Positions 5,411 through 10,719 of a stretch of DNA of 21,452 nucleotides are shown here, piece by piece. The notes under the pieces were generated by a model that had not been told where the DNA came from, made no database searches, and saw nothing but the letters and a program-made list of their open reading frames with translations. The stretch is taken from the IMG/VR virus record IMGVR_UViG_3300042371_000145, positions 1-21,452 of that record. One strand, written 5' to 3'. Positions within the stretch are counted from its first letter, which is position 1, and each line of letters starts with the position of its first letter. The position numbers were made by a program, and so were the translations under genes. This DNA is from a virus.

Positions 5411-5567
5411 ATGGCCAAAAACACCAGAACAGCAGCACCCAAGGCACACCAAACAGCCCCAGCATAATCAGACCCATCACGAATCTGTCGGTCATCATTG
5501 CAATGCCGCCTAGCAAGATCAGTGCGCCAATCACCGCATAGAGTCTCACAATAATTGTTCTGATCAC
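5394..5567 (-). CDS. Small membrane protein, two predicted TM segments
   Basis: A 57-residue hydrophobic protein with membrane segments at about 7-24 (VRLYAVIGALILLGGIAM) and 30-52 (VMGLIMLGLFGVPWVLLFW), ending in FFKKI. I choose the GTG at 5567, which overlaps the preceding stop as GTGA and has GAGGG upstream; a GTG 13 codons earlier would add a polar extension overlapping the nuclease gene. It sits in the chain NinB - HNH - this - terS, each pair overlapping by a few bases. It could be an accessory membrane protein; a holin or exclusion role cannot be argued from sequence alone. Confidence 0.7.
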   Translation of the reverse strand: MIRTIIVRLYAVIGALILLGGIAMMTDRFVMGLIMLGLFGVPWVLLFWCFWPFFKKI

Positions 5568-5839
5568 TGTAATGCCCTCATGGTTCGCTGGTGTGCTCTC
5601 TGCCACATTTCCTGCCTTTCGAGTTTAGTTAGTTTAACACCTTGGTCTATTTCCCAATGGCATTTCAGGCATAGCGCGGCCACCAGGTTGTCATCAGCTT
5701 TGATTCCCCGTCCCTTACCGCCGCCCCAGTTGCTATGCGCTGCCTGCACCATTTCCCCGCTACCGCAGTGCTGGCAATCCAGCTGCGCCACCCGTTTTAG
5801 CAAGGCTTTGTCGCGCACATAGACGTGTTTAGGAAACAT
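5564..5839 (-). CDS. HNH/YbcO-like (DUF1364-type) nuclease
   Basis: A 91-residue protein with two Cys pairs (CQHC, residues 22-25; CLKCH, 57-61), AAH at 33-35 and a Gly-rich GGGKGRG loop, then a basic helical tail. This matches the small zinc-containing nucleases of phage nin regions (YbcO/DUF1364), in which Cys pairs bind a structural zinc and His residues form the active site. The ATG at 5839 has AAGGG upstream and overlaps the ninB stop by 11 bases; a long N-terminal extension in the same frame lies wholly inside ninB and is rejected. The stop overlaps the next GTG. NinB and RusA upstream make a DNA-processing cluster. The family call is by motif and context. Confidence 0.75.
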   Translation of the reverse strand: MFPKHVYVRDKALLKRVAQLDCQHCGSGEMVQAAHSNWGGGKGRGIKADDNLVAALCLKCHWEIDQGVKLTKLERQEMWQRAHQRTMRALQ

Positions 5840-6236
5840 CAATGCCCTTTTCTGCTGACCAGGCCAGCAAGAATTCGATGAACTCGCTGCTTTCCGCTGT
5901 CGTAAATTTGTGGCTTTGCAGACCAAGCTGGACGATTCTTTCGCCATCCAGACTCGGGCAGACCTTGCCGATCTTGCGGTTTGTGTCGTGCGCCCACTGG
6001 TCAATCAATAATCTTTTCCAATCGTCACTTGTCCAGGTGCTGCCAGCCGTGGCCATTTGCTTGGCTATTTTGTCGATCATGCTGTGAAACATTGCGTTTT
6101 GCTCAGTGCTGCGGCGGCTCTGCTTGATTTCAATCGTCATCCGGTGGCCTGCCATCAGCATGGATTTCAGCATCGGCCAGACAACGGTCAGCATCTCTTT
6201 GTGCGCCTGGACGGGTTCCCAGCAAGTGACTTTCAT
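5829..6236 (-). CDS. ninB: NinB-like recombination protein
   Basis: A 135-residue protein resembling lambda NinB (Orf), a recombination mediator that helps load annealing protein on SSB-coated ssDNA. Visible NinB-like blocks are the EIKQSRRSTEQNAMFHSM segment, W-rich TSDDWKRLLIDQWAHD, and the C-terminal SSEFIEFLLAWSAEKGIDV, where 'eliefilawgae.GV' is typical of the family. Start ATG overlaps the rusA stop (ATGA). Neighbours are RusA upstream and an HNH nuclease downstream, the same grouping as in lambdoid nin regions. It likely works with the ERF-type annealing protein and SSB candidate encoded on the opposite strand. Confidence 0.85.
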   Translation of the reverse strand: MKVTCWEPVQAHKEMLTVVWPMLKSMLMAGHRMTIEIKQSRRSTEQNAMFHSMIDKIAKQMATAGSTWTSDDWKRLLIDQWAHDTNRKIGKVCPSLDGERIVQLGLQSHKFTTAESSEFIEFLLAWSAEKGIDVS

Positions 6237-6655
6237 TCTTTTTCCTTTATCAGTACATCCACGCCAGCAGTCTCGGCATACACCTTTGTTGTGTGGATTT
6301 CCACCACTTGCGAGTCATCACCGTAAACAATGCCATTCATTGCATCCATGAAAGATTTCACAACATTGTCGAGGTCTGGCTTCTTGCAAGGCCATTCAGA
6401 GCCACTTAAACACGCCTCTGCTCGCTTTTTGGGGTATGACTTAGGCACTGGTAGCCTGACGTAAATAAAAGCCTCTAGCGCGGTTTTAAGCGGTTCACTG
6501 CTTCCCATTGCTTGCAAGGCGTAAAACCGTACCTGATCTTCGTAGCTGCTGGTCTTGGCGTCGGTGTAAGTTGCGACAAAGTTTCCTCGTCGTGCAAACC
6601 GCGGTCGTCCTTTGCCGTGCGGCTGGCCTGGTACTGTGAACATGATTTGCATCAT
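6233..6655 (-). CDS. rusA: RusA-like Holliday junction resolvase
   Basis: A 140-residue protein with the RusA signature: an N-terminal FTVPGQPHGKGRPRFA block, central KKPDLDNVVKSFMDAMNG (about 91-108) with the paired Asp residues of the active site, and YGDDSQVVEI (111-120) with further acidic residues. RusA dimers cut four-way junctions, here probably to resolve recombination or replication intermediates before packaging. The first ATG (6655) overlaps the preceding stop as ATGA; a second ATG follows immediately. The stop overlaps ninB. Length matches the family (about 120-140). Confidence 0.92.
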   Translation of the reverse strand: MMQIMFTVPGQPHGKGRPRFARRGNFVATYTDAKTSSYEDQVRFYALQAMGSSEPLKTALEAFIYVRLPVPKSYPKKRAEACLSGSEWPCKKPDLDNVVKSFMDAMNGIVYGDDSQVVEIHTTKVYAETAGVDVLIKEKE

Positions 6656-8649: not shown

Positions 8650-8919
8650 ATGAATCACGCAATCAATTGGGGTCTTGCTGCTTTGACAGCATTGATCTTG
8701 TCTACCGCATACCTGCTGGACGGCCCTAGCGATCACCAGGCTGCAATCGATGCCGCGGCTGATGCCAAGGCTACTCAGCGCGAACAAGCGCAACAGGCGA
8801 GGTTTGAACGTGCTGCACAGGCAATGTGTGGCGATAACGCAGGATGGACGCAGCTGGAAAACGGCAGTGTCCAATGTTTGACTAAACGGGGTCACAAGAC
8901 CCAGAAAGTGCAATTGTGA
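8650..8919 (+). CDS. Small membrane-anchored or exported protein with Cys pair
   Basis: An 89-residue protein with an N-terminal hydrophobic segment (about 5-23, INWGLAALTALILSTAYLL) acting as signal anchor, an Ala/Gln/Arg-rich helical region (30-58), then a compact C-terminal part with two Cys residues (AMCGDNAGW and VQCLTKRG) that could form a disulfide in the periplasm. I recall similar short proteins in phages of Betaproteobacteria. Its stop overlaps the next GTG (GTGA). Role unknown; an early envelope protein such as an exclusion factor is possible. Confidence 0.78.
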   Translation: MNHAINWGLAALTALILSTAYLLDGPSDHQAAIDAAADAKATQREQAQQARFERAAQAMCGDNAGWTQLENGSVQCLTKRGHKTQKVQL

Positions 8920-9110
8920 AGATCGAAGATATCTTGTCCAGCATCACGGACATTGCGAACCGTGCTTACGAAGGCGCTGACCCGGCTGACCGGCTGGCGT
9001 TTGAAGTGGGGATGCTGCATAGCAAGCTGCGGGAAATGTCGTACCTGCTGGCAAACGCTACGGAACACGTTAAAGAGTTGGAAATCGAACTTGCATACGA
9101 AAGGAAATGA
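8916..9110 (+). CDS. Small coiled-coil protein, unknown function
   Basis: A 64-residue acidic, helical protein beginning with GTG in a GTGA overlap: MKIEDILSSITDIANRAYEG and onwards. Heptad-like spacing of Leu, Met and Ile in the last 30 residues (HSKLREMSYLLAN, VKELEIELA) suggests a coiled coil. No domain recognised. Tight packing with both neighbours supports it as a gene. Confidence 0.72.
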   Translation: MKIEDILSSITDIANRAYEGADPADRLAFEVGMLHSKLREMSYLLANATEHVKELEIELAYERK

Positions 9111-9111
9111 A

Positions 9112-9300
9112 ATGACAACCATGACCATGATCCATGAAGTCAAATCTATGGAAATGACTGAAACCAATCAACTGACCAGCGCGGCCGGTTTGTTTTGGCG
9201 GCGTACTTTGAACGTGACTGACAAGCACGGCAATCAGACGCAAATCACGTTCTTTGCTGACAGCAAGGAATCTCTTGAAATCAAGGAAACAACATCATGA
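9112..9300 (+). CDS. Small hypothetical protein upstream of the recombinase
   Basis: A 62-residue protein (MTTMTMIHEVKSMEMTETNQ, then a beta-like stretch LFWRRTLNVTDKHGNQTQITFF). AAGGA lies just before its ATG; a longer frame from 8953 overlaps the coiled-coil gene and is rejected. The stop overlaps the ATG of the ERF gene (ATGA), so translation is coupled to the recombinase. Function unknown. Confidence 0.7.
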   Translation: MTTMTMIHEVKSMEMTETNQLTSAAGLFWRRTLNVTDKHGNQTQITFFADSKESLEIKETTS

Positions 9301-9845
9301 AACAGATTGCATCTGCTTTGGTGAAAGCACAGAAGGCCTTTGGGCCAGCCCTGAAGACCGCTACGAACCCGCATTTCAAGTCACGCTATGCTGACCTTGC
9401 CGCTTGCGTCGAGGCCGTGATTGAGGGCTTAAACAGCGCAGGAATCGCCCTTGTGCAGCGCACCAGCCTGGACGATGCCGGCGTGACCGTAGAAACCGTG
9501 TTTGTGCATGAGTCTGGCGAAATGCTGGAGTGCGGCAAGCTGCACGTACCAGCTGCCAAACACGATCCGCAAGGCTATGGCTCTGCTCTGACGTATGCCA
9601 GGCGCTATTCATTGATGGCGGCTTGCGGAATCGCACCTGAAGATGATGATGGCAACGCAGGCAGCAAGCCAGCCCCCAAGGTTACAGACGCCACGATCAA
9701 TGCGCTGCTGGCAGACATTTCTGGCTGCACAACGCACCAGGCGCTCAAGGACGCATTTTTTCTGGCCATCAAAACAGTGGGTGACGATGCTGCCGCCCGT
9801 GATCGAATCACTTACGCAAAAGACGTACAGAAAGCAAAACTATGA
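9297..9845 (+). CDS. erf: ERF-family single-strand annealing protein
   Basis: A 182-residue protein matching the ERF family named after the P22 essential recombination function. Diagnostic blocks are NPHFKSRYADLAACVEAV (residues 24-41), the Gly-Tyr-Gly block DPQGYGSALTYARRYSLMAA (90-109) and the following GIAPEDDDGN. ERF proteins form rings on ssDNA and anneal complementary strands, allowing circularisation or recombination of phage DNA. The family is usually about 180-210 residues, so this is full length. Both ends overlap neighbours by ATGA. With the nuclease immediately downstream it forms a Red-like pair. Confidence 0.92.
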   Translation: MKQIASALVKAQKAFGPALKTATNPHFKSRYADLAACVEAVIEGLNSAGIALVQRTSLDDAGVTVETVFVHESGEMLECGKLHVPAAKHDPQGYGSALTYARRYSLMAACGIAPEDDDGNAGSKPAPKVTDATINALLADISGCTTHQALKDAFFLAIKTVGDDAAARDRITYAKDVQKAKL

Positions 9846-10471
9846 GCATATTGTTTAGAGCCAGTGCATTGAGCGCAATCATGACCGACGGCAAAGGCAA
9901 AGATGAACTGTCTGTCGGTGCTAAGACCTACGTCACTAAGCTGGCAAAGGAGTTTGTCTACGGCTACGACGAGCGGGTGACTAGTAAGTACATGGACAAG
10001 GGCATCCAGGTGGAGGACGAATCCATTGATCTGTACAACGCTGTTCATCTGACTAGCCACATCAAAAACACCGAGCGCCGAAACAATGAGTGGATTACTG
10101 GCGAGGCTGACATTGTTGCTGATGACAGAATCATTGACATTAAATCAAGCTGGTGTCTGACCACCTTCCCGGTCCTGGGTGAGCAGGGTGAAGACAAAAG
10201 CTACGAATGGCAGCTGCGCGCTTATATGATGCTGTGGGACAAGCCACGGGCAGACATTGCTTATTGCCTGGTCTCTACGCCTGCGGATCTGATCGGCTGG
10301 GAGAATAAATCACTGCACCAAGTTGACCACATCAACCGTGAACTTCGCGTAACCATCGTTCCATATGAAAGGGATTCAACACTAGAAGACAAGATCAAAG
10401 TCAAAGTCGAAGCGGCCAGGGTCTATTACGACCAGGTTATCCAAGAAATCAGCAAACAACACACCTACTGA
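9842..10471 (+). CDS. PD-(D/E)XK (YqaJ/RecB-like) exonuclease
   Basis: A 209-residue nuclease-fold protein. Visible motifs are a conserved acidic helix (GIQVEDESIDLY, about 54-65), GEAD with Asp90, the D-x-K of IIDIKSSW (Asp99, Lys101), and the later YEWQLRAYMM (121-130) with its conserved Gln. This is the arrangement of phage lambda-Exo/YqaJ-like and Cas4-like nucleases. ATG overlaps the ERF stop (ATGA). It would resect dsDNA ends to give ssDNA for the ERF protein. The exact subfamily cannot be told by eye; Exo-like function is inferred from pairing with ERF. Confidence 0.85.
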   Translation: MSILFRASALSAIMTDGKGKDELSVGAKTYVTKLAKEFVYGYDERVTSKYMDKGIQVEDESIDLYNAVHLTSHIKNTERRNNEWITGEADIVADDRIIDIKSSWCLTTFPVLGEQGEDKSYEWQLRAYMMLWDKPRADIAYCLVSTPADLIGWENKSLHQVDHINRELRVTIVPYERDSTLEDKIKVKVEAARVYYDQVIQEISKQHTY

Positions 10472-10479
10472 AAGAAATC

Positions 10480-10719
10480 ATGGCAATCATCAAAGAAATC
10501 AGCTGCATCGTCGGCACATACACCAACGGCCAGGGCGAAAAGAAGAATCGTTATCAGCGTATTGGCAGCATCATCCAGGGACAGCGCGGCGATATGCTCA
10601 AGCTGGACGTTATCCCCTTGAAAGAGGGCGGCTGGGATGGCTGGGCATATCTCAATGACCCCAAGCCGAAAGAGTATCAAGGCCTGCCAAAAGATGAAGA
10701 CAGCGACGTGCCATTTTGA
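10480..10719 (+). CDS. Putative compact single-stranded DNA-binding protein
   Basis: A 79-residue protein. The body is short, beta-rich and basic (KEISCIVGTYTNGQGEKKNRY, KLDVIPLKEGGWDGWAYL), with aromatic residues suited to an OB-like fold. The last residues, KDEDSDVPF, imitate the SSB C-terminal tip (acidic run ending in D-[IV]-P-F) which recruits recombination and repair enzymes. It follows the annealing protein and exonuclease after eight bases. Typical bacterial SSB is 150-180 residues, so this would be a minimal version without the disordered linker. The DNA-binding fold itself is inferred. Confidence 0.6.
   Translation: MAIIKEISCIVGTYTNGQGEKKNRYQRIGSIIQGQRGDMLKLDVIPLKEGGWDGWAYLNDPKPKEYQGLPKDEDSDVPF

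Follow-up and report, generated by a model that had tools for sequence, protein, structure and literature searches.

The window (the whole 21,452-nucleotide stretch of viral DNA analyzed here) encodes a protein of 79 residues that is probably a phage SSB. Its family has not previously been recognized as one of SSBs, and the protein probably acts together with the annealase and exonuclease whose genes immediately precede its own (Table 1). A minimal SSB in the service of a Red-like module is the interpretation that fits this protein best: its C-terminal tip is conserved, its gene keeps its position while the partner genes are exchanged, and distant relatives have the anatomy of an SSB. Under this interpretation, we infer binding of ssDNA and contact between the tail and ERF. 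The preliminary description had called the protein a stripped-down SSB. The SSB-type tip, the link to annealase-exonuclease modules and the long-linker relatives that share its core all agree with this, but the OB fold and the descent from an SSB family that were implied do not find support.

Table 1. Features of the recombination module and of the opposite arm of the window.
Feature	Position	Strand	Evidence or remark
ERF-type single-strand annealing protein, 182 aa	9297..9845	+	PF04404 E=1.3e-22; phrog_2324 E=3e-40
PD-(D/E)XK (RecE/RecB-like) exonuclease, 209 aa	9842..10471	+	phrog_5715 "exonuclease" E=4e-63; motifs
79-aa SSB-like protein, whole gene	10480..10719	+	relatives in >400 viral contigs
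79-aa protein, core, residues 1-60	10480..10659	+	predicted four-stranded β-meander, pLDDT ~92
79-aa protein, short linker PKPKEYQGLPK, residues 61-71	10660..10692	+	low model confidence
79-aa protein, SSB-type acidic tip DEDSDVPF, residues 72-79	10693..10716	+	resembles host-type SSB tips
NinB/Orf recombination mediator, likely partner	5829..6236	-	PF05772 E=6.5e-22; phrog_72
RusA Holliday-junction resolvase	6233..6655	-	PF05866 E=9e-34
HNH endonuclease (YbcO/DUF968-like)	5564..6004	-	phrog_131 E=4.5e-23; Pfam DUF968 and YbcO below cut-off

The Recombination Module and its Relatives

The three genes are consecutive on the same strand, as first described, and profiles confirm the identity of the ERF and exonuclease genes. 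The exonuclease ATG overlaps the ERF stop codon by 4 nt; a gap of 8 nt then separates the exonuclease stop from the 79-aa ORF. ERF scores 80.8 bits against PF04404, where the cut-off is 25, and so belongs to the ERF annealases. The exonuclease, a member of phrog_5715, has readable motifs (EADIV...DIK, corresponding to D..DxK, and QLRAY, corresponding to QxxxY); its match to Pfam PDDEXK_1 is weak (0.14, below the cut-off). The NinB, RusA and HNH proteins expected on the opposite arm are likewise borne out by profiles and lie between 5.6 and 6.7 kb on the minus strand; NinB scores 78 bits against PF05772 (cut-off 23.8) and thus belongs to the NinB/Orf family. The true start of the HNH gene probably lies downstream of the listed TTG. 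Upstream of ERF, positions 8916-9110 of the window encode a 64-aa protein, look-alikes of which were seen by eye before different annealases in loci L044 and L072; it is possibly a further conserved component of the module.

Scanning viral contigs yielded 414 confirmed relatives of the 79-aa protein, the best 80 of which were taken, and a second clade of the family was reached through Methylophilaceae phage P19250A. A plasmid search returned no relatives, and a viral scan with the relative from phage ctDrO704 as query gave zero confirmed. In the open-licence literature no paper was found on phage P19250A, and none naming the family. The window protein has weak links only to PHROGs 18187 and 37570 (the latter once given as 37560), both of "unknown function", which are matched by the window family and by its distant relatives. 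In one copy from a Betaproteobacteria MAG (L086:3-245) the reading frame departs from the family after DGWG and is probably frameshifted.

The position of the gene is conserved among these relatives. A recognized exonuclease lies upstream in 141 of the 152 loci with enough upstream sequence, and a recognized annealase in 121 of 139. Loci without a recognized ERF might be taken to contradict this synteny, but the objection is weakened by the three that were opened by hand: L044 encodes a phrog_3290 single-strand annealing protein with an exonuclease of the YqaJ type, the ERF of L072 is divergent, and in L066 the exonuclease is missing but ERF is directly adjacent. Among distant relatives, the gene follows RecT and an exonuclease in Vibrio phage ValSw3-3, a protein annotated as Mgm101-like and an exonuclease in ctDrO704, ERF and an exonuclease in Shewanella phage ZP9, Rad52 in a Microcystis phage, and an exonuclease in Sulfitobacter phage pCB2047-A and Stenotrophomonas phage SOVA965. 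In locus L269 the immediate neighbor is RecT (PF03837, 2e-39), and in Bordetella phage PBb002 the gene lies between helicase and primase genes. Adjacency to an SSAP or a recombination exonuclease, as is characteristic of phage SSBs that accompany an annealase, is therefore found in most of these loci, whether the partner is ERF, RecT, Rad52 or another annealase. Since the gene holds its place behind unrelated partners (ERF, the phrog_3290 SSAP, Rad52 and RecT, with RecE or YqaJ exonucleases), its position points to a general role on ssDNA.

Two further observations concern this neighborhood. In SOVA965 and a Vibrio phage (L239:2349-2858 and L242:1333-1839), the place of the annealase, immediately before the exonuclease and the SSB-like gene, is taken by proteins of ~168 aa from phrog_21613, a group of unknown function; these proteins are candidates for an unrecognized annealase or SSB-like partner. 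A tail-bearing relative was also seen in an apparent Mu-like prophage (L283), with a Gam-like ORF, identified by eye, upstream.

The C-Terminal Tip and the Layout of the Family

The 79-aa ORF terminates in KDEDSDVPF, which had been noted as an SSB-type tip; DEDSDVPF has the acidic residues and hydrophobic-P-F ending typical of PF00436 proteins, and the tip is conserved among relatives. The terminal residue is Phe in all of 162 relatives, and 160 of these end in [ILVM][PSAG]F. A stricter test, demanding at least three D/E immediately before a hydrophobic-[PSAG]-Phe ending, was passed by 96 of the 162, whereas not one of ~3,300 other ORFs from the same loci passed it, save for a second copy of the window gene. 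A coincidence confined to one sequence can be rejected on these figures. Among 123 distinct gene copies all end in Phe, mostly as acidic-[ILVM]-P-F. This Phe is encoded by TTT in 105 copies and by TTC in the other 18, so that the residue has been retained despite variation in the DNA. The acidic part of the tip is more variable than this invariant Phe, since in many members of the second clade the acidic residues number just one or two (e.g., ATDSAMPF), and the stretch preceding the tip differs in length among relatives.

Distant relatives display the full layout of an SSB: a core of ~60-80 residues is followed by a linker of 20-60 residues, rich in Q/G or A/P, and the chain closes with DDDIPF or a sequence close to it. 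Thus the SOVA965 protein has a G/Q linker followed by NFNDDDIPF, those of PBb002 and L273 end in QYDDDIPF and PYDDDIPF, and copies in betaproteobacterial genomes (L282 and L284) end in FDDDIPF, in L284 as VEFDDDIPF. The SSBs of host type in genomes of the same class as a Burkholderiales MAG that bears a relative mostly end in FDDDIPF, MDDDIPF or similar, and the phage tips therefore look compatible with the host. Within this family, the window protein represents the form with a short linker. To say that it lacks the linker, as was first proposed, is somewhat too strong: the linker is short, but its 11 residues are present.

Could the likeness of the tail be incidental, and the protein serve some other purpose, for example as a cofactor or inhibitor of the exonuclease, which its gene almost always adjoins? 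We regard this as extremely improbable, given that the terminal Phe is invariant in the 123 distinct genes despite their variable linkers, that loci L059-L068 carry the gene with ERF but without a recognized exonuclease, and that DDDIPF tips recur in distant relatives.

The tip is not universal, and this counts against the reading as an SSB: it is absent from the proteins of ZP9 and V1.029.O and from a Microviridae ORF, and in pCB2047-A, as in the Microcystis phage protein, it stands shortly before a small C-terminal extension. The Microviridae ORF is itself a side observation, an unannotated frame of 68 aa in a ssDNA phage (L240:1998-2204), which has the core motif and lies between the scaffold and replication-initiator genes. 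A core-like protein without a tail (YSVREYEANGEKKSDWTRIG...) was also seen in a betaproteobacterial genome (L285:1309-1668), and the core may, given this protein, be a more general small domain. In ctDrO704 (L083:6007-6444) the ORF runs ~36 residues beyond DDDIPF without a stop and overlaps the next annotated gene, which is either a real extension or a slip in sequencing or assembly.

The Predicted Core

The AlphaFold model of the window protein, computed on 52 family sequences, is confident over residues 1-60 and places strands at residues 3-15, 21-34, 37-42 and 56-59. The predicted core is a four-stranded β-meander with a short helix, in the order β1-β2-β3-short helix-β4, and the fifth strand of an OB fold is missing. 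The predicted model of a distant relative with a long linker has the same strand order. Confidence falls toward the C-terminus (pLDDT ~52 at the very end of the window protein and below 50 over residues 77-99 of the relative), and in both models the folded core is followed by a linker and tip that are probably disordered.

Searches with this core gave little. Against Pfam, NCBIfam and PDB sequences nothing rose above noise; even at E-values up to 1 the window protein matches no Pfam family, be it PF00436, DUF669 (PF05037) or the Enc34/gp2.5 family (PF10991), and it is placed in none of these three. Thirty diverse family members likewise gave no match above noise in Pfam/NCBIfam, PF00436 being absent. 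Profile-profile alignment (hhalign) of the window family to 11 bacterial SSBs covered the tail only, over 15 columns, and when the broader family alignment was used, the top match to bacterial SSBs was a meaningless stretch of 15 columns. With two models, Foldseek found no PDB match with E <0.4, and the best match of VIA-align 2, the N-terminal region of HipA (Z 2.4-2.5), was taken as noise. Among viral predicted structures, Foldseek matches with E <0.001 were only unnamed or uncharacterised phage proteins resembling family members. The preliminary description had expected structure prediction to return an OB fold and remote homology searches to reach SSB families. Neither expectation is supported, since the fifth strand is missing, the models have no significant structural match in the PDB, PF00436 and PDB sequences are not matched, and the alignment to SSB profiles is confined to the tail. 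An OB fold is possible, if unsupported, for example as a barrel completed in an oligomer.

These results bear on two other explanations. The protein might belong to a known SSB family (PF00436, gp2.5/DUF2815, DUF669 or the lactococcal p2 type) as a truly reduced OB-fold member that has diverged too far to be recognized; the order of its predicted elements fits the first four of an OB fold, and the GenBank annotation of the ctDrO704 relative is that of an SSB. We consider this quite unlikely in view of the absent fifth strand, the tail-only profile alignment and the failure of the 30 diverse members to find a family; nor is any OB protein prominent among the Foldseek and VIA matches, although absence there is not proof. 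Somewhat less unlikely, though still improbable, is that the core binds the exonuclease, the annealase or nothing rather than ssDNA, and that the protein is a tail-bearing adaptor or decoy whose tip captures host proteins that interact with SSB (candidates are RecO, PriA, ExoI, RecQ and primase), recruiting or inhibiting them. The tip is indeed the best SSB-like feature of the protein and the sole part to align with bacterial SSBs, it resembles host-type tips, and the core is without a link to ssDNA-binding folds. Against this explanation, long-linker relatives with the full SSB layout lie in annealase modules, strand 2 carries conserved K, R and aromatic residues, and the PBb002 relative occupies a position where an SSB would be expected.

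For the reading as an SSB itself, the sequence searches and predicted models offer contrary points: a link to known ssDNA-binding proteins in sequence or fold appears to be lacking, and a core of ~60 residues would be small for the task, with a net charge of only +2 over residues 1-66. We suggest only tentatively, and with more doubt than the assignment as an SSB, that a widespread family of phage SSBs has been built on a small non-OB β-meander and has gained the tip of bacterial SSBs independently, by which annealase modules would possess a tip-compatible SSB of their own and be less dependent on the SSB of the host.

Proposed Mechanism and Comparison With Known Systems

Resection of DNA ends is a known activity of this class of exonuclease. 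Here, the exonuclease would resect a DNA end, and the small β-core of the 79-aa protein, probably as an oligomer, could cover the exposed strand. The acidic [ILV]PF tip may then dock onto ERF, and perhaps also onto NinB and host SSB-binding proteins; by analogy with HK620 SSB and Sak4 and with host SSB and RecT, this docking would load the annealase and annealing would begin. A search of 22 related contigs turned up no SSB of the PF00436 type, and the 79-aa protein may therefore be the only SSB of the phage, with the caveat that these contigs are incomplete. Searches of whole contigs for DUF669 and PF10991 gave no match but are uninformative, as the controls gave none either.

The association of annealases with SSBs is already known; what is new is the SSB-like assignment for a common family of unknown function with an unrecognized small core. 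If correct, the assignment would give this family a function and would extend the known annealase-SSB pairs by one whose SSB is exceptionally small and easy to make. The efficiency of recombineering across hosts depends on matching between annealase and SSB tip, and the host range, or portability, of RecT depends on the last seven residues of SSB (PMC10711431). An SSB this compact, encoded alongside its cognate annealase whether that is ERF, RecT, Rad52 or another, could therefore be directly useful, and with the 79-aa protein one could ask cleanly how much of an SSB the loading of an annealase requires.

Several systems invite comparison. In phages of Firmicutes, erf adjoins ssb in almost 80% of cases (PMC8093625), and YbcN, a relative of NinB, binds SSB through its tail (PMC4118853). 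The closest experimental precedent is the SSB of HK620 (DUF669, PF05037), which stimulates annealing by Sak4 and recombineering and needs its last six residues, NDYPPF, without which recombineering falls tenfold (PMC5928155). As in the window, its gene stands beside that of an SSAP and its acidic tip ends in [P/I]PF, but it is a protein of 21 kDa with Sak4 rather than ERF as partner, and the window protein has no PF05037 match. Bacterial SSBs (PF00436; E. coli, Burkholderiales) share with the distant relatives a core, a flexible linker and a similar acidic DDDIPF tip. Their core, however, comprises ~110 aa against ~60, without a match in sequence or detected fold, and the linker of the window protein is nearly absent. 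T7 gp2.5 and Enc34 ORF6 (DUF2815, PF10991) are also phage SSBs with a disordered acidic C-terminus but are larger and have a full OB fold (PMC5686142), and PF10991 is not matched by the window protein. The Orf14bIL67-type SSBs of lactococcal phages, encoded beside Sak3, are similarly SSBs of non-bacterial type within an SSAP module (PMC3208561, PMC8093625); they are set apart by description, being reported as related to archaeal SSBs. PHROGs 18187 and 37570, which the window family matches, are given no function; the SSB-like layout is a new annotation for both.
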